Assembly: GCA_002189035.1 (NCBI GenBank)
Contig: NEEC01000007.1
Location: forward strand, 744,001-808,000
Origin: Utricularia gibba
Taxonomy: Eukaryota; Streptophyta; Magnoliopsida; Lamiales; Lentibulariaceae
DNA: 64,000 nt
Direction: 5' to 3'
The first letter of the stretch is position 1; each line of letters begins with the position of its first letter. Shown piece after piece: positions 8,321-18,379 of the stretch. A model generated the notes under the pieces. The model did not search any database and was not told the origin of the DNA. It saw only the letters and a list, made by a program, of their open reading frames with translations. A program made the translations under genes and the position numbers.

Positions 8321-8828
8321 ATGGCAAATCCGTGGTTCATCTTTCTCCTGTGTTCGTCCCTGGGACTAAGTTCTCGAGTCCTCGCCCTCAGAAATGTAAA
8401 CTTTACCTTGGTCAGGGATGCAATTAACAAAGGAGCAGGTGCCTTTTTCAGATTCTTTTCTGTGTTCACGAAACTATGTTGAATGTCCATATTGAAGAAT
8501 GTTGCGTGTAATCTGCACTTAGTGTGCACGGATGGCAGCCCTGCAGCCTACTCCTTCCTACCAGGGTCTGAATCCGGAGTCGACAATTGGATAGTCTTCT
8601 TAGAGGTTGTTGATGGTCTCATCACCCTTAAGGAAACATTTCTAAATTTCGACATTTTATCGACGAAAAATATGAACTTTCGCTACTTCTAAAGGCGCTG
8701 TCCTGATTTTGTGCACAAGGGTGCGCCACGGACGGGGGTTGCAACGAGAGACGCAGTCTAGACGTAGGAAGCACAGCCCACCACCAGAAGATCAATTTCA
8801 CCGAGATTTTAGAGGAAAACCCCGCGTT

Positions 8829-8833
8829 CAATC
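8829..8833. repeat. Left target-site duplication (CAATC)
   Basis: CAATC immediately precedes the left LTR and is repeated at 14403-14407 right after the right LTR. Five base pairs is the usual target duplication of Copia integrases. The duplicated bases are part of the pectin acetylesterase exon 3 codons for Asn-Pro. Confidence 0.95.
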
Positions 8834-9279
8834 TGTCAGCAAGTGGTGGAGCAACGAAGATCCGGGAAGTCTCAACCCGCGAAGATGAATGGCGCGCGAC
8901 CTCTGTTCCTCCCATGAGAAGCAACCCTCAATTAGATTGGGAAAAAGGCCTTATCATACTTGGGCCTCAACATTCCAAACTACTGGCCCAAGAAGAAGCA
9001 TCTGAAGCCCAGTCCATGAAAGAAGTCCTAGTAAATTCTGGCTGCTACACAGTAGATGAACAAGAGGACTAATCTACAGACTAAAGGCAACGGTCATATT
9101 TTAGGCCTGATATGATCCAACGGGCAACTCTCCTCATCTATATAAATCCCTGTTTGCTTTATGAAAAAAAAGGAAAGTTCTTTTCGATCCAAAAACAATA
9201 GTCAATATCCACAAACTTCAACATTCTCTCAACGTTCAACCAAGTCTCCAACAAAATCAAGCAGCCAAAAATACTTTTA
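8834..9279 (+). repeat. 5' LTR of the Copia element
   Basis: It begins TGTCAGCAAG and ends ATACTTTTA, so its ends are TG...TA rather than the canonical TG...CA. The end is fixed by the last base shared with the right LTR and by the target duplication. It carries a TATA box (CTATATAAAT, 9138-9147), placing U3 to the left and R/U5 to the right. An open frame through most of U3 matches the C-terminus encoded by the 3' copy. Confidence 0.95.
9138..9147 (+). promoter_or_regulatory. TATA box in the 5' LTR
   Basis: CTATATAAAT lies about 140 bp before the LTR end and 200 bp before the gag start, a sensible place for Pol II initiation of the genomic RNA. The same box recurs at 14261-14270 in the 3' LTR, where it could drive outward transcription into the remaining pectin acetylesterase exons. 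Confidence 0.7.
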
Positions 9280-9297
9280 TGGTGAACCCGACGTGAA
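9280..9297 (+). other. Primer-binding site of the Copia element
   Basis: TGGTGAACCCGACGTGAA abuts the 5' LTR without a spacer. It begins TGG, complementary to a tRNA CCA end. It is not the common plant Copia site TGGTATCAGAGC that pairs with initiator tRNA-Met. I could not name the priming tRNA from memory. Confidence 0.8.
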
Positions 9298-9329
9298 GAT
9301 ACTTCACCGACTCCCATCTCCTCTTATCA

Positions 9330-12300
9330 TTGCAGTCTCTCAGAATGGCAGCCCTCCAACAAGCTCCTCCAATCTTCACTGGTCAGCGCTACGCTTCTTG
9401 GGCAGTACGAATGGAAAGTTACCTGCAAATGAACGACTTATGGTCTGTGGTGGATCCTGTACGTCCAGACTCCTCTGAAATAGCCACAGCAGAAAGTCTC
9501 AAACTCACAGATGCTCAAGTAAAGAAAGCTAAGTATGCTCTGGATCAAGCCTTATCTGAAGAAGTGTTCAACCGTGTTATGCTACTGAAAAGTCCCAAAG
9601 ACATCTGGAAAAAATTGGAGGAATTCTACGGAGAGGATACGGAAGCCCGTGAGAGCCGCATTCAACGTCAATGGGAGCTCTTTGACAACCTGAAATTCTT
9701 ACCAGGTATGAGTATCTCTCATTTTTCAGAAACGCTAATCAAAATTGTCACTGAGTTACAGACCTTGGGAGAGCCCTTGGAAGACAGAAGAATTAAATCA
9801 AAAATACTCAGTTCCCTACCGCGGTCCTTTGCCCCTGTAGTCACTACTTTGCGGGTCACAGGCATTCACTCCATATCCTCCAGAAAACTACTAGAAAGAC
9901 TCAGTGAATCCGAAGTTGAAGTCGGACTTGGTGAAGGCCAGGAACTTGCCTTCAAGGCAACAGAAAATCAGAAAGGCTATGGTTCTCAATCATCAAATGA
10001 ACCGGTGATCTTTCAAGCAAAAATTGAGAAACCAAGTACTGGAGATTCATGCCCATTCTGCAAGCGAAAAGGCCATTCACCAACACAATGTTTCTGGAGC
10101 CCTGACGCCAAATGCCTGTACTGTTCTCTCCAAGGTCATGTGGACAAAGTGTGTCCCCTGAAAAAATACCATCAGATTGGAGGAAAGGCTGCAGATCCTA
10201 AGGACAAACTTACTAGCGCTATGAATGATGTAAATCTCGCAGCTGAAATGAATAAGAAGAAGATTGATATTTACTCTCTGCGCCGCAAAACTCTAATCAC
10301 ATCATTTGTGGATCTAAGGAAACAAGACATCTGGTTTATCGATAGCGGATGCAGTCATCATATAACCAACGACAAGAGTCTATTCACAACCTTCATCGAG
10401 CTAACTGGGAAAGTAATCGAAATTGCTGATGGAAATCACTTACAGGTCATCGGTCAAGGAACAGTTTGCCTTGAAACTGTCCAGAAATTAATCAAGATCA
10501 CAGACGTGTATCTGGTGCCCCAGGCCTACCACAATCTACTAAGCACTGGCCAGCTGGTTGAAAAGGGGATGAAAGTTCATCTGGAAAGTAATGAGTGCAA
10601 AATATTAGATGAAGAAGATAATATACTCCTTACGGTTGCTATGACTGATAGGGTCTTTCCACTGCTTCCGAATGCTACATCCATCGATTACAACATTTGC
10701 CTCAAGTCCCTAGAATCATCTGAGATTTGGCACCAACGGTTAGGTCACCATCACTATGCCTCCCTTATATCCATGAAGAAGAGAAACCTGGCAGAGGGGA
10801 TTCCTAATATAATTCCTGAGGAAAAACACTGCAGAATATGCTTTCAAGGGAAGATGAGCCGAACACCACTCCCTAAGTCCAGCATTCATTCTCAGAAAAA
10901 ATTGGAAGTTGTTACCAGTGACGTCTGTGGGCCCATGGCCTCTCCTACTCGAGCCGGCAACAAATATTACGTGATCTTTATTGACGAATATTCAAAGTAT
11001 ACCTGGATCTATCTCCTGAAGCATAAATCAGAGGTTTTGCACCACTTCCAAGTCTTCAAGGTCCTTGCAGAAACTCAAAGCAATAGTAAGATTCTAACAC
11101 TCCGGTCAGACAACGGAGGTGAGTACAAATCAACTGAACTGAGACACATTTGTGAGACAAATGGTATTACTCACCAGTTTACAACGCCATATACGCCAGA
11201 GCAGAACGGCATATGTGAACGAAAGAACAGGACAATAGTCAATATGGCTCGGTGTCTACTCTATCAAAAACACTTACCTCTAGAATTCTGGGGCGAAGCA
11301 GTCAACACAGCCGTGTATCTGTTGAACCGCCTGCCAACCAAAGGAAATAAAGACTGTAAAACTCCTTATGAGCTATGGTACAACAAAATTCCAAGCCTAG
11401 ATCACATGAAGGTATTTGGATCACCCTGCTATATATACATTCCAAAGGAGAAGAGATCAAAATGGGACAAAAGATCTGATGAAGGAATTTTCCTGGGATA
11501 TAGCAATACAAGTAAAGCCTACAGGGTACTGAATCTAAGAACAAATGAGGTGGAACTCAGTCGTGATGTAACAGTAGACGAGACTAGAATTTACAACTGG
11601 AGTTCCTCGACAACACATGACAAAAATCATTCTTATTCAGAAAATATATGGAATTTATTCCCTCAACAAGGACATGATGCAACAACCGAACCCCTCAGCA
11701 TCCACCCAGCGAGGAACAGTCCTAGTCAAGACTCTATTCAACAAGAAATGACAGCCTCAGGAACAAATATGTTAAGGGTCCAAGCAACCCTAGAAGATCA
11801 AATCACAAACTCAAATGATCGAGCCTCAAACTCAACAGATTTAAGAGGACACTCGGTGTCAACGACAGACATCCTAGAAGTCTCTAATAGCGAAAATTTG
11901 CCACCACCTAGTCCTGATGTTCCGAGAACAATTGAGCCCGAAAGCCCCTGTACAACAGAAGATCCTGTTAATACCCAACAGTTTCCAGAAGGCTCCTTGG
12001 CCACTACTATCGAAGACATGAGATATGAGGATGCAGACTCAGAGCACATACCTGAACAAACTCTAGAATGTCATGAAACCCTCATCAACAGCATCAGAAA
12101 TCCAAAGGAAATCACTGAGCTATCATCAACCGATACATCAGAAGAAGAAAACTCATCAGGAGAAGATGAAGAAACTCAAAACCGAGGACCCAACCTAGCA
12201 GCAAGAAATCCTATACTCATTCCCTCACCTCAAAGGCAAAGTTACCTGGAAGATTACGGACAAGAAGGGGTTCCTTACACCCCACATCATCTATGTATGG

Positions 12301-14195
12301 ATCTGAAACAAAATGAAGACAGCTCACCTGTGCGAGGATATGCACCAATCAACGATATCTATGATAGGGCATTGAGCACCTATGAACCAGCAAGCGTTCA
12401 GGAAGCTCTCGCTGACCCAGATTGGAAGAAATCCATAGACGAAGAATTCAACTCCATCCAGAAACACGGCGTTTGGACAGCAGTGCCTAAGCCGAAGCAG
12501 AAAAAACCTCTGGACCTAAAATTCATATTCCGTCCCAAGTTAAATCCTGATGGCACTCTGAACAAAAGAAAATCCAGACTGGTGGTAAAGGGATATTTAC
12601 AGAAAGAAGGGATTGATTACCTGGAAACCTTCGCTCCGGTGGCAAGATTAGACACCATTAAGCTGATTATTGCACTTGCGGCCTGCAACAAGTGGTATTT
12701 ACATCATCTGGACATAAAAACGGCCTTTCTGCATGGAGAGTTAAGCGAAGACATATATGTGAACCCCCCTCCAGGTTTCATCATCCGAGATAATCCAGAA
12801 TATGTACTGAAATTAAATAAAGCTTTATACGGACTCAAGCAGGCCCCCAAAGAATGGTATACTACCATTGACACTTTCTTTCTAGAGCTGGGATATACAA
12901 GAAGTCAAAATGATACTACATTATACATATCTGAGGATATCCAAGGAAAAGTTATTGTCTCCTTATACGTAGACGACATTCTAATCACAGGCAGCAGTGA
13001 AGAACGAATTTCTGAATTACAGAAGCTATTGCAGCAAAGATTTGAACTCACCAATCTGGGACATGCACGTTATTTCCTAGGAATGGAGATCATTCAACAT
13101 AAAGACTTCATATTTTTGAACCAACGTAGATATACAGAGGAACTACTCAAAAAATACAGCATGGAATCATCAAAAGTATCTACTACTCCTTTCTCACCAG
13201 AAGTTAGAAAGAAATTATCTGACCTTAATTCTCATCCAGTTGACTCTCATAACTACCAGAAACTCATTGGCGCTCTGATGTATTTAACTGCTACTAGACC
13301 GGATATAACCTTCGCCGTATCATTTCTGGCCAGATTCATGCATCAGCCACACAACACACACCTGGAAATAGCAACACGTATCCTGAAATATTTGAAGGCC
13401 ACAACTTCCTTTGGTTTATATTACAAGAAAGGTACTAACCCTATTTTGCAGGGATTTGTTGATTCAGACTTTGCTGGCGACGAACAAGATTGTAAATCTA
13501 CCACAGGCTATCTATTCAACTTAGGATCAGCGGTATTTTCATGGAACAGCAAGAAACAAGCCGTCACTGCACAATCATCGGCAGAAGCCGAATACATCGC
13601 AGGAGCTGCTGCTGCCAACCATGCGCAATGGTTGGTGAAATTATGCGATGACCTGAAAATTCAAATTACAAGACCGATAATACTCAAGATAGATAACAAA
13701 TCTGCCATTAGCATCGCAAAAAATCCTGTGATGTTCGGTCGGACCAAGCACATCAAGCTTAAATACCATATACTCAGAGATTATGTGAAGGAAGGACTGA
13801 TTAAACTTGAGTACTTACCATCGGATGAGCAACCTGCAGATATTCTCACCAAATGCTTATTCCCAAGGAATTTCAACAGAATCAGAGAAATGCTGGGAAT
13901 TCGGAGAAATCCTCTTGTGACAACAGCCGGATCTTCATTACTCCCTCAGGGAGGAATGTCAGCAAGTGGTGGAGCAACGAAGATCCGGGAAGTCTCAACC
14001 CGCGAAGATGAATGGCGCGCGACCTCTGTTCCTCCCATGAGAAGCAACCCTCAATTAGATTGGGAAAAAGGCCTTATCATACTTGGGCCTCAACATTCCA
14101 AACTACTGGCCCAAGAAGAAGCATCTGAAGCCCAGTCCATGAAAGAAGTCCTAGTAAATTCTGGCTGCTACACAGTAGATGAACAAGAGGACTAA
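9330..14195 (+). CDS. Copia gag-pol polyprotein, apparently intact
   Basis: One uninterrupted frame of up to 1,621 codons. The likely start is the second Met (9345, MAALQQAPPIF) rather than 9330. From the N-terminus: a UBN2-type Gag; two CCHC knuckles from about residue 241 (CPFCKRKGHSPTQC, CLYCSLQGHVDKVC); aspartic protease FIDSGCSHH with Asp near residue 338; integrase with an HHCC part (WHQRLGHHH, CRICFQGK) and DDE catalytic Asp in SDVCGP (about 531) and RSDNGGEY (about 594), with Glu in QNGICERKN; reverse transcriptase with LDIKTAFLHG and YVDDI (about 1215); and RNase H with DSDFAGD (about 1378), QSSAEAEYIA and a C-terminal PADILTK. No stop or frameshift is seen. Unusually, the frame crosses the purine tract and ends 239 nt inside the 3' LTR, adding about 79 LTR-encoded residues. 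Confidence 0.95.
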   Translation: MQSLRMAALQQAPPIFTGQRYASWAVRMESYLQMNDLWSVVDPVRPDSSEIATAESLKLTDAQVKKAKYALDQALSEEVFNRVMLLKSPKDIWKKLEEFYGEDTEARESRIQRQWELFDNLKFLPGMSISHFSETLIKIVTELQTLGEPLEDRRIKSKILSSLPRSFAPVVTTLRVTGIHSISSRKLLERLSESEVEVGLGEGQELAFKATENQKGYGSQSSNEPVIFQAKIEKPSTGDSCPFCKRKGHSPTQCFWSPDAKCLYCSLQGHVDKVCPLKKYHQIGGKAADPKDKLTSAMNDVNLAAEMNKKKIDIYSLRRKTLITSFVDLRKQDIWFIDSGCSHHITNDKSLFTTFIELTGKVIEIADGNHLQVIGQGTVCLETVQKLIKITDVYLVPQAYHNLLSTGQLVEKGMKVHLESNECKILDEEDNILLTVAMTDRVFPLLPNATSIDYNICLKSLESSEIWHQRLGHHHYASLISMKKRNLAEGIPNIIPEEKHCRICFQGKMSRTPLPKSSIHSQKKLEVVTSDVCGPMASPTRAGNKYYVIFIDEYSKYTWIYLLKHKSEVLHHFQVFKVLAETQSNSKILTLRSDNGGEYKSTELRHICETNGITHQFTTPYTPEQNGICERKNRTIVNMARCLLYQKHLPLEFWGEAVNTAVYLLNRLPTKGNKDCKTPYELWYNKIPSLDHMKVFGSPCYIYIPKEKRSKWDKRSDEGIFLGYSNTSKAYRVLNLRTNEVELSRDVTVDETRIYNWSSSTTHDKNHSYSENIWNLFPQQGHDATTEPLSIHPARNSPSQDSIQQEMTASGTNMLRVQATLEDQITNSNDRASNSTDLRGHSVSTTDILEVSNSENLPPPSPDVPRTIEPESPCTTEDPVNTQQFPEGSLATTIEDMRYEDADSEHIPEQTLECHETLINSIRNPKEITELSSTDTSEEENSSGEDEETQNRGPNLAARNPILIPSPQRQSYLEDYGQEGVPYTPHHLCMDLKQNEDSSPVRGYAPINDIYDRALSTYEPASVQEALADPDWKKSIDEEFNSIQKHGVWTAVPKPKQKKPLDLKFIFRPKLNPDGTLNKRKSRLVVKGYLQKEGIDYLETFAPVARLDTIKLIIALAACNKWYLHHLDIKTAFLHGELSEDIYVNPPPGFIIRDNPEYVLKLNKALYGLKQAPKEWYTTIDTFFLELGYTRSQNDTTLYISEDIQGKVIVSLYVDDILITGSSEERISELQKLLQQRFELTNLGHARYFLGMEIIQHKDFIFLNQRRYTEELLKKYSMESSKVSTTPFSPEVRKKLSDLNSHPVDSHNYQKLIGALMYLTATRPDITFAVSFLARFMHQPHNTHLEIATRILKYLKATTSFGLYYKKGTNPILQGFVDSDFAGDEQDCKSTTGYLFNLGSAVFSWNSKKQAVTAQSSAEAEYIAGAAAANHAQWLVKLCDDLKIQITRPIILKIDNKSAISIAKNPVMFGRTKHIKLKYHILRDYVKEGLIKLEYLPSDEQPADILTKCLFPRNFNRIREMLGIRRNPLVTTAGSSLLPQGGMSASGGATKIREVSTREDEWRATSVPPMRSNPQLDWEKGLIILGPQHSKLLAQEEASEAQSMKEVLVNSGCYTVDEQED
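13948..13956 (+). other. Polypurine tract of the Copia element
   Basis: AGGGAGGAA directly precedes the TG of the 3' LTR, the expected plus-strand primer. It is interrupted upstream by CTCCCTC, so it is short. It is also coding, lying within the gag-pol frame. Confidence 0.75.
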
Positions 14196-14402
14196 TCTAC
14201 AGACTAAAGGCAACGGTCATATTTTAGGCCTGATATGATCCAACGGGCAACTCTCCTCATCTATATAAATCCCTGTTTGCTTTATGAAAAAAAAGGAAAG
14301 TTCTTTTCGATCCAAAAACAATAGTCAATATCCACAAACTTCAACATTCTCTCAACGTTCAACCAAGTCTCCAACAAAATCAAGCAGCCAAAAATACTTT
14401 TA
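13957..14402 (+). repeat. 3' LTR of the Copia element
   Basis: A 446-bp direct copy of 8834-9279 with no difference seen by eye. It contains the last part of the gag-pol frame (stop at 14193-14195), the TATA box at 14261-14270 and the same ATACTTTTA end, followed at once by the second CAATC. Confidence 0.95.
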
Positions 14403-14407
14403 CAATC
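14403..14407. repeat. Right target-site duplication (CAATC)
   Basis: Matches 8829-8833. It is followed by CAG|GTAATG, the original 3' end and donor site of pectin acetylesterase exon 3. Confidence 0.95.
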
Positions 14408-16018
14408 CAGGTAATGATCGATATTCATCTGTCGACACGACCACAGCCACCAATGACAATCACCCAACTACTGTAGGCTTCTATAATTGGAACAAAGTCT
14501 TCCTCATCTATTGTGACGGCGGCTCCTTCACCGGAGATGTCGAACAAATGTATCCGGTGAGAAGCTTGTTAACCTTTTGTCATTACAATGGATTACTTTC
14601 ATGACATTCGGCTTGTAATTATTAGCAATACAAGCTGTGGATGAGGGGCTCCAGGATCTTTAACACCGTGATGGATGAGATACTGGAGTTGGGATTGAAG
14701 AACGCTCAAAATGTAACCAGCCCTTCATCTCTTTTAACGCATCGCGTTTGAAATCTGAACCCGTGGCCTTCGTAAAACCAGGCCATACTCGCCGGCACGT
14801 CCGCCGGGGGTCTAGCCACGTACTTGCATTGTGACATCTTCCGGGAGCTGATTCCTAAGACCCAGAGGGTCAAGTGCATCGCTGATTCCGGGTTCTTCTT
14901 CTATGGGTAACTTCGTTAATCATCAATAATTTTTTCCTATGCCCTGGAAATTTCCGTCAAAATGAAATTGCTTTTTCCGACAGGGAGAATCATAAAGGGG
15001 CTGACTTCAGAAAACAGTACAACGTGAATCTTCTCGAATACCATGTAATTAATACCTACTACAGATTTTATTATTACAATTTAACCTTAATTTTGTTGTC
15101 TTAATTGTTAATTAACCATTCAGGGAATGCTGAAATTCCTACCGAAATCATGCACTTCCAGAATGGATCCTGCATTGGTCCGATATGAATCCTTAATTAC
15201 GGTTTAATTGTGTTGTTAAATTAATGATTAACCCTAATTACCCTCTCCCAAACCTCCCTATAGTGTCTCTTCCCAGAAAACATCGTGGCTGATATCAAAA
15301 CCCCAATTTTTATACTGGAGTCTGCATTTGACTGGTGGAAGGTAACGAATTCATACCCAATTCTGAATTCTAAACCCTAAATTGATCAATTTTGTTGCAA
15401 AACATCACCCGCTAAGCTAATTTCTTCTTGTTAGATAAAATGGAGATACCTCCTTGACGACAGCAAAGATCCTACCTGGCAGCAATGCTTGAACAACATA
15501 ACAAACTGCGGAGCTCCACAACTCGCAGTGCTCTATGGTACGATCAATTTGATTTTTTTTCTACTGGTAAAAAGAGTTCCAACGCGACTCTGCGTCAGAT
15601 TTCCGGAACGCATTCTTGGAGTCATTTCGAAAGGCCGGTTACTCTTCCTCTCGGGGAGTGTTCGTTCACGACTGCTACGGCCACGGCCACATCATGACCA
15701 CCCCGGAGATGTGGAGATGCCCACACATTGCGGGAGACACGGTAAATGAAATCACAACTAGCGCTACTATTGCTTACAGATGTTAAATGACGCGATGCTC
15801 CTTGCGAACTGAGGACGATCTGTCGTTTGCAGACGGTTGCGAAGATGATCAGCGATTGGTACTTCGATCGGAAAACCGTCCAGATTATGATGCCCCCTGG
15901 AAACCCTAGAAATTGCAGTCGCACGCCGCAAGAGATACAATTGCAAACTCAAATGGTGATGTTACCGTTACAAAAATCATTACCTTCAATCTCAAGTTTT
16001 TATATAAGAGAAAAATAA

Positions 16019-16727: not shown

Positions 16728-18379
16728 ATGGCAATCAGCCCATCTCCAGGAGTCATTACATGCAAAGGTGGTTTATATTTCTACTTCTTTGTCACTAGAA
16801 ACTTTTCATGTTGGTTTCTTGAGCAGTGCTGATGTACCAGTTTGGTTGTGTTTTGTTTTCCGGTGTAGCCGCGGTTGTGAGGAAGTCCGGCGAGCCGTTG
16901 CAGGTGGAGGAGATTCAAGTTGATCCACCCAAGTCCTCTGAAATCAGGATCAAGATGCTTTGTGCCAGCATGTGTCACACTGATATACTCTGTTGCAATG
17001 GCCTACCTGTTGTAAGCTACTCCATCACTCTTTTAGCGTTTCAAAACCATAGAAACAGTCTAGACTTTGTCTCATTTCATTACGAAAAAGCAAAGCAGCT
17101 TATTTGCTTGACTTGCTTTTCAGCCTTTGTTTCCTCGAATTCCTGGACACGAAGGTGTTGGGTAAGTCTCTCGTTCTCTTTACATTTCAAGGAATTCGAA
17201 ACCATCTTCGGTTGGCGATTTGCGTTTGTATGGATGTCGCAGGGAAGTGGAGAGTGTTGGTGAAGGGGTGGCACACATCAAGCCTGGAGAAATTGTGATG
17301 CCACTGTATTTGGGCGAGTGTGGAGAGTGCCTCAACTGCAGCTCCGGGAGGACAAATCTATGCCACAAGTATCCGCTTGGTTTCAGCGGAGTACTGGCGG
17401 ATGGAACTTCAAGAATGTCAGTCGGAGGAGAGAAAATCTACCATCATTTCAGCTGCTCCACATGGTCTGAATATGTTGTCATTGAAGCAAACTACGCAGC
17501 GAAGGTGGATCCAAGAGTTTCTCTTCCACATGCAAGTTTCCTCTGCTGTGGCTTCACTACAGGCATCGGATCAACATGGAGAGAAGTTGACATTGAAAAG
17601 GGAGCAACTGTTGCCGTCATTGGCCTTGGTGCTGTTGGACTTGGGGTAATCTCAGTCCCTTCTAGAATTTGCTATACCGATTGAGTTCATCTGAACAGCG
17701 TCTGCGTATGATCCTGTAGGCGGTGAAGGGAGCTCAGCAGAAGGGAGCCTCCATGATCATCGGAATCGACATCAATGACAAGAAGAAACCAAAGGCAGAA
17801 GCTTTTGGAATCACACACTTCATAAACCCGAAGCTCTCCCTGGACAAGTCTGTCTCTGATCTGGTAAAGGAAGCAACCGGAGGACTGGGAGTCGACTACT
17901 GTTTCGAATGCACCGGGGTGCCAAACCTCCTTAACGAAGCCGTAGAAGCCTCCAAAGTGGTGAGAAAAACTCCAAAATCAACACATACGAACACAAAGTA
18001 TATCTGCTAATGACTGAGTTACTCTGCAGGGACTAGGGACAATTGTGTTTATAGGCGCAGGGCTCCAGAAGAGTGGAGAGCTGAACTATATACCACTCTT
18101 GTGTGGAAGGACGATCAGGGGATCCATTTATGGTGGAGTTAGGCCTCAGTCTGATCTCCCAGTCATTGTGGAGCAATGCGTCAATAAGGTAAGCATCTGT
18201 TCAAGTGCAGCATTTCAAAGCTAAGTTCCACACTTGAGACTAGAAGTCACTTATGGAAATCTGGACAGGAAATAGATCTTGATCAGCTCATCACTCACGA
18301 GGTTTCACTGGCTGAGATTAACAAGGGGCTGGAGTACATGAAGCTGCCTGACAGTGTGAAGGTGGTGATCAAGTTTTGA
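16728..18379 (+). CDS. Zinc alcohol-dehydrogenase-like protein (medium-chain, plant ADH-like family)
   Basis: Seven exons in perfect phase: 16728-16767, 16869-17011, 17124-17161, 17243-17645, 17720-17959, 18030-18188 and 18269-18379, giving 377 residues, the normal family length. It is an NAD(P)-dependent medium-chain dehydrogenase acting on alcohols or aldehydes, probably cytosolic. Visible features: catalytic zinc ligands CHTD and [15 protein letters not shown]; the structural zinc loop [15 protein letters not shown], where four cysteines are spaced as in plant ADHs; the later catalytic Cys in FLCCGFTTG; and the Rossmann motif [13 protein letters not shown] followed by IIGIDIN, whose Asp favours NAD over NADP. 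The start [16 protein letters not shown] fits the ADH-like proteins of the At1g22430/At5g42250 type rather than classical ADH1. The exact substrate is not predictable. Confidence 0.93.

Follow-up and report, generated by a model that had tools for sequence, protein, structure and literature searches.

A very recently mobile Copia family in the bladderwort Utricularia gibba, with one copy in an exon of a pectin acetylesterase-family gene that was probably damaged beforehand

We analysed a 64,000-nucleotide stretch of the Utricularia gibba genome (assembly GCA_002189035.1, contig NEEC01000007.1, positions 744,001 to 808,000 of the forward strand; hereafter the window, whose numbering is used throughout), in which a complete Ty1/copia retrotransposon interrupts exon 3 of a gene of the pectin acetylesterase (PAE) family. 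The element is one of eleven near-identical copies of a family that moved very recently, because eight of the eleven insertions are still paired with their empty site in the same assembly. Taken as a whole, the best explanation, to which we give a probability of roughly 0.85, is that a copy of a young Copia family inserted itself into exon 3 of a gene of the PAE family, which probably carried a lesion already. A Copia insertion in an exon is ordinary in kind; a young burst with empty alleles, together with priming by tRNA-Trp, raises its interest.

The element and the gene that it interrupts

The insert is bounded by identical 446-bp direct repeats, its long terminal repeats (LTRs), and a CAATC stands at either edge as a 5-bp target-site duplication (TSD; Table 1). 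Pfam searches, made on pieces of the insert, recognise gag, then integrase, then reverse transcriptase (RT) domains on one long frame. The complete Ty1/copia element thus occupies 8834-14402 on the + strand (8829-14407 with both CAATC copies), in the orientation of the host gene. The initial annotation, made from the letters alone, had described just this: a Copia retrotransposon inserted into exon 3 between CAATC duplications and pointing the same way as its host. The piece 11619-12419 matched no Pfam family.

Gag-integrase-RT order on a single frame, LTRs and a 5-bp duplication are all common among plant Ty1/copia elements. This element departs from them in that its LTR ends are TG..TA instead of TG..CA, and in that its pol frame extends into the 3' LTR, where it ends at 14195. 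In the available text of two sources, the LTRs of most plant elements are said to end in CA (PMC3701649, PMC5659011). The RT relatives are plant Copia-type proteins, the best at 59% identity and the best named ones at 50-52% in Sesamum among the best 120 of 6104 matches; this comparison scored candidates of 0.55-1.75 times the query length that shared most words. At such identities among the matches listed, recent arrival of the element from a distant plant was rejected.

When the insert and one CAATC are removed, exon 3 consists of 8720-8833 plus the CAG at 14408-14410 and ends in AFNP. Its end AATCCAG, joined to the exon 4 start GCTTCTAT, reads NPGFYNW in phase across a 66-bp GT-AG intron, so that the proposed splicing of AFNP to GFYNW is borne out. 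We positioned the twelve host exons by hand with two paralogues as guides (C505 and the C213 neighbour). All eleven introns are GT-AG and every junction is in phase except that of exons 2 and 3. Because this junction is 10 bp short relative to C505, the 414-amino-acid spliced model (insert omitted) needs an exon 2 donor that the paralogues do not use. It matches PF03283 at 356.2 bits over profile positions 8-354 of 355; the flanking exons belong to one gene, as the initial annotation had assumed, and the idea that they come from two was dropped in the face of this single PAE model.

The relatives of the host protein are plant pectin acetylesterases: 657 proteins scored above threshold, with many Lamiales and one Genlisea among the best 120, and the sequence also matches eight distinct Notum chain sequences. 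We aligned 113 of the best 120 listed homologues (330-530 amino acids; seven were dropped), and 113, 109 and 111 of these agree with the host at its Ser, Asp and His positions, which we take to be the catalytic triad. The host gene thus shares a near-full profile and these three positions with plant PAEs (PF03283) and, more distantly, with Notum. It differs from plant PAEs in being split by the element and in having no GG[G/A/S]W where exons 2 and 3 meet.

A family that moved very recently

The search space was the 100.09-Mb, 516-contig assembly. A search with the LTR gave 29 matches, 22 of which form eleven pairs (window copy included); all of the paired LTRs are 98-100% identical to that of the window, some with small gaps, and the other seven matches stand at 76-98%. 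Both LTRs of the window copy and of four other copies are the same 446 bases. With the RT region (40 of 44 candidates scored), eleven matches are about 100% identical over 928-930 of 930 bases; the other 29 lie at 65-70%, the best-scoring of them at 67%. A duplication, different at each, flanks all ten other copies; it measures 5 bp at nine of them and 4 bp at the tenth. One copy, C422:39210-45387, is about 0.6 kb longer between the primer-binding site (PBS) and RT, perhaps through a nested insertion. Three of the seven unpaired LTR matches are single LTRs (L074, L075 and L076, at 98, 91 and 76% identity), the first two within GCTTC and TTCTT duplications and the third with no duplication visible. 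Given these older single LTRs, the family thus predates the present burst, and some of its copies are reduced to solo LTRs.

For all eleven sites we joined 160 bp of either flank and searched the assembly with the junction. A match running straight across it, that is an empty site, was present for eight copies. Four of these pairs have the full site on a 30-60 kb contig and the empty site on a 0.7-3.5 Mb contig; in the other four the full site lies on a 2.6-6.8 Mb contig and the empty one on a contig of 25-39 kb. Full and empty flanks differ by 4 substitutions and 20 gap positions in 16 kb (2 kb for each of the eight pairs); the gap positions, eleven of which fall in one pair, may be long-read errors. 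These insertions are polymorphic within the sequenced material for eight copies, not including that of the window, and it is from the empty/full pairs that we infer the activity of the family. At a substitution rate of 1.3e-8 per site per year, LTR identity alone permits any age below about a quarter of a million years, from 3/(2 x 1.3e-8 x 446).

By our reading, five of the eleven sites lie in coding exons, two in introns and four near genes or in unclear settings. Besides the window PAE, the apparent exon sites are an NLP-like frame (C451:6125305; GAF_NLP at 23.5 bits, just under the cut-off of 24.1), an ABC transporter (C413:428201), a PPR gene (C236:14925) and a frame with no Pfam match that we take to be MLF-like (C422:39210). 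Each of these four has its empty allele in the assembly. The introns belong to a kinase taken as CRK-like (Pfam match under cut-off) and to a thioredoxin-domain gene. In being young, low in copy number and present both inside and between genes, the family resembles Tos17, Tnt1 and ONSEN, which are recently active plant Copia families. None of the papers listed in a literature search reported an active Copia family from Utricularia; the U. gibba long-read genome paper may already contain such a report. We claim no insertion preference for genes, because eleven sites are too few against a genome that the accessible part of one source gives as about 48% genic (PMC10663240).

The exon 2/3 lesion and the fate of the host gene

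In the paralogues the exon 2/3 junction reads LE-GGAWCATDGGC (C505) and LE-GGGWCTCDGGC (C213 neighbour). In the host gene, only two bases separate the exon 3 acceptor from TGCGCC, as against twelve in C505, and 10 bases are thus missing. If the donor is placed where the paralogues have it, the host frame is lost and a stop follows. The place is conserved among homologues: GGGW, GGAW or GGSW is found there in 110 of the 113 aligned homologues, and the remaining three have QGGW, VGGW and a gap. Six of the seven homologues left out of the alignment contain GG[G/A/S]WC, and the Genlisea PAE record is without the loop only because it begins after it. The same place in the Notum alignment is GGW, to which we attribute, presumably, an oxyanion-hole role.

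The host allele is therefore either frameshifted or without its GG[G/A/S]W loop, independently of the insertion. Since the element is young, we place this lesion before the insertion. The target would then have been either a pseudogene already or a gene for a protein with the PAE fold that was unlikely to work as an ordinary esterase, because the loop is lost or, with the paralogue donor, the frame. Thus a working wall enzyme is probably not what the element hit. In fact, this is where the initial annotation, which saw a clear case of a wall-modifying enzyme gene disrupted by insertion, went too far: the insertion holds, but a working enzyme is improbable without a loop that both paralogues retain.

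As its anatomy shows, the element was reverse-transcribed from a tRNA-Trp primer and placed into exon 3 by its own integrase, with duplication of CAATC. The host frame enters the 5' LTR and meets a TAA at 9070-9072, after 187 amino acids in the model with the shifted donor and before the catalytic serine, so the interrupted allele is predicted to yield no esterase. This damage is probably largely redundant, because the loop or the frame would already have gone at the exon 2/3 junction. Upstream, the host frame shares its phase with the LTR frame in which pol terminates, and a short open frame at 14284-14410, in the 3' LTR, leads in phase into the remaining host exons.

Several observations weigh against our reading. 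RNase H was not recognised in the element, as the piece 13350-14195 where it is expected had no Pfam match. No empty site was found in the assembly for the window copy, nor for C213:1916707 and C321:1510365, and the flanks of the window copy hit nothing but themselves and, at 73-78%, the paralogue C505; the recent movement of this copy is argued from its LTR identity, and the insertion may be homozygous, or the assembly may lack the second allele. At the lesion, shifting the donor 10 bp downstream preserves the frame with no gap and gives LE-VVDG-CATDGGC, which leaves room for a translated, modified host protein. Finally, dN and dS are 0.27 and 1.33 against one paralogue and 0.31 and 1.54 against the other, with ratios of about 0.2 that speak against a long-dead host gene; they come from 276 codons in nine of the twelve exons, and values of dS above 1 are near saturation.

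These last points are also what favours a different account, in which a functional pectin acetylesterase was knocked out, the exon 2/3 change having been tolerated through the shifted donor with VVDG replacing the loop. The gapless frame relative to the paralogues, the retained Ser, Asp and His positions and the dN/dS all fit, but GG[G/A/S]W is too constant among the homologues, where even two of the three exceptions keep GGW, as does Notum, and we consider this account unlikely. Somewhat less improbable, though still doubtful, is that the eight empty/full pairs are not fresh events but long-standing alleles that the population maintains, or reflect variation between plants that were pooled. 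From an assembly alone, heterozygous, pooled and somatic origins look the same, and one pair does hold its eleven gap positions within 2 kb; yet old alleles should be more divergent than so few substitutions in 16 kb, unless the stock was inbred.

The element could also be imagined to supply a truncated PAE gene with its promoter and 5' end, the frame starting at the ATG at 14284 in the 3' LTR. The fused frame runs from this ATG through NP-GFYNW to the host gene's own stop, and a TATA-like box lies at 14262. However, the ATG is just 22 bases from the start of that box, which by the usual spacing between TATA box and transcription start probably puts it ahead of transcription; moreover, the product would have no signal peptide and would miss the first part of the fold, and domestication of so young an insertion is improbable. 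We regard this as very unlikely. Less credible still is a misassembly in which a copy of the repeat was wrongly joined into the gene. An assembler could be misled by eleven copies so alike, but the perfect duplication at the exact LTR ends, flanks with no second close match and a different duplication at every other copy led us to reject it. A young Copia copy in a gene already lesioned thus remains the preferred explanation, and the lesson of the locus is one of caution: the exon insertion is real, and the host gene was probably damaged beforehand.

Table 1. Features of the element and of the interrupted PAE-family gene, in window coordinates
Feature	Position	Strand	Basis
Host PAE exon 1	8321..8438	+	
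Host PAE exon 2 (to 8615 with the donor 10 bp downstream)	8523..8605	+	
Host PAE exon 3, part 5' of the element; start 10 bp short relative to paralogue C505	8720..8833	+	
Target-site duplication CAATC, copy 1	8829..8833	.	
5' LTR, start TGTCAG, end CTTTTA; TATA-like box at 9139	8834..9279	+	
Primer-binding site, pairing at 18/18 bases with the tRNA-Trp 3' end plus CCA	9280..9297	+	
Gag portion of long frame: Retrotran_gag_2, DUF4219	9345..10319	+	Pfam; ATG picked by eye
Pol_BBD, gag_pre-integrs, integrase core (rve), SH3_retrovirus	10320..11618	+	Pfam
Copia-type reverse transcriptase RVT_2, 258.6 bits	12420..13349	+	Pfam
End of long frame, stop within 3' LTR; RNase H expected by position	13350..14195	+	
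Purine run AGGGAGGAA ahead of 3' LTR, which we take to be the likely polypurine tract	13948..13956	+	Read from sequence
3' LTR, same sequence as 5' LTR; TATA-like box at 14262	13957..14402	+	
Target-site duplication CAATC, copy 2	14403..14407	.	
Host PAE exon 3, final three bases 3' of the element; donor at 14411	14408..14410	+	
Host PAE exon 4 (GFYNW...)	14477..14556	+	
Host PAE exon 5	14626..14712	+	
Host PAE exon 6, GTSAGG (nucleophile Ser position)	14782..14906	+	
Host PAE exon 7	14984..15044	+	
Host PAE exon 8	15124..15177	+	
Host PAE exon 9 (Asp position)	15264..15341	+	
Host PAE exon 10	15435..15537	+	
Host PAE exon 11 (His position)	15599..15741	+	
Host PAE exon 12, coding portion up to stop	15833..16018	+	

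The assembly holds eleven PAE-like loci, by our grouping of 59 exon matches. Some 60 kb beyond the interrupted gene, on its downstream side, lies a second PAE gene with its GGGW loop intact (C213:819306-820638). Just downstream of the interrupted gene is an alcohol dehydrogenase-like coding sequence (ADH_N, 35.5 bits; window 17220-17684); upstream, an open reading frame of 162 amino acids matched no Pfam family. A 145-amino-acid PAE fragment used as query found no homologue.

tRNA-Trp priming and the silencing background

The 18 bases that follow the 5' LTR are complementary, at 18 of 18 positions, to the 3' end of tRNA-Trp once CCA is appended. This tRNA end has five genomic matches, all called tRNA-Trp(CCA) by ARAGORN; the complementarity was counted for three of the five genes. 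The exact 18-base PBS occurs at 40 places in the assembly, the reversed control sequence at none. It stands upstream of all eleven family copies and of 16 of the 29 other RT matches, 27 of 40 in all, on the same strand and at 3.0-3.7 kb; no exact tRNA-Trp PBS was found upstream of the other 13 RT matches, and 13 of the 40 PBS sites were not assigned to an RT match. A pattern of tRNA-Met type, made up of TGGTATCAGAGC and four more fixed bases, matches the genome at 30 places.

Fitting tRNA-Trp and not tRNA-Met sets this PBS apart from those of plant Ty1/copia elements. In the text available from PMC6317226, the Ty1/copia lineages that use complete tRNAs all use complete tRNA-Met, and tRNA-Trp is listed as a primer of non-chromovirus Ty3/gypsy elements. 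A literature search joining tRNA-Trp and Copia returned that paper and one on a fly. On this comparison a tRNA-Trp-primed Copia group looks unusual, and such priming would widen the primer use known for the superfamily.

A second Copia family came to light among the RT matches. Nine of them have an equal 65% identity and 134 bits to the window element and one more scores 126 bits; all ten, on contigs C508, C304, C245, C244, C234, C213, C4, C3 and C2, have a tRNA-Trp PBS about 3.0 kb upstream. Their equal scores suggest another young burst.

The compact bladderwort genome is known for retrotransposon silencing, and its low transposon load is usually ascribed to silencing and deletion. LTR-retrotransposon silencing in U. 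gibba is reported in the accessible portion of PMC6982007, and an excerpt of PMC8333044 describes a DCL3 without N-terminal domains, a smaller share of 24-nt small interfering RNAs and low CHH methylation. Against this background, we argue from the paired full and empty sites that at least one family recently escaped silencing. We hypothesise a link between this escape and weak RNA-directed DNA methylation (RdDM). In its full form, the proposal is that of a tRNA-Trp-primed Copia group with one family that is mobile at present, into genic and intergenic sites alike, because a weakened RdDM may let it through; we put this forward tentatively, as somewhat less than an even chance. If the family is still moving, it would offer a natural case of ongoing retrotransposition in a flowering plant whose genome is among the smallest. 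The eight full/empty sites would then serve as ready markers for its rate in clones and for a test of the role of weak RdDM.

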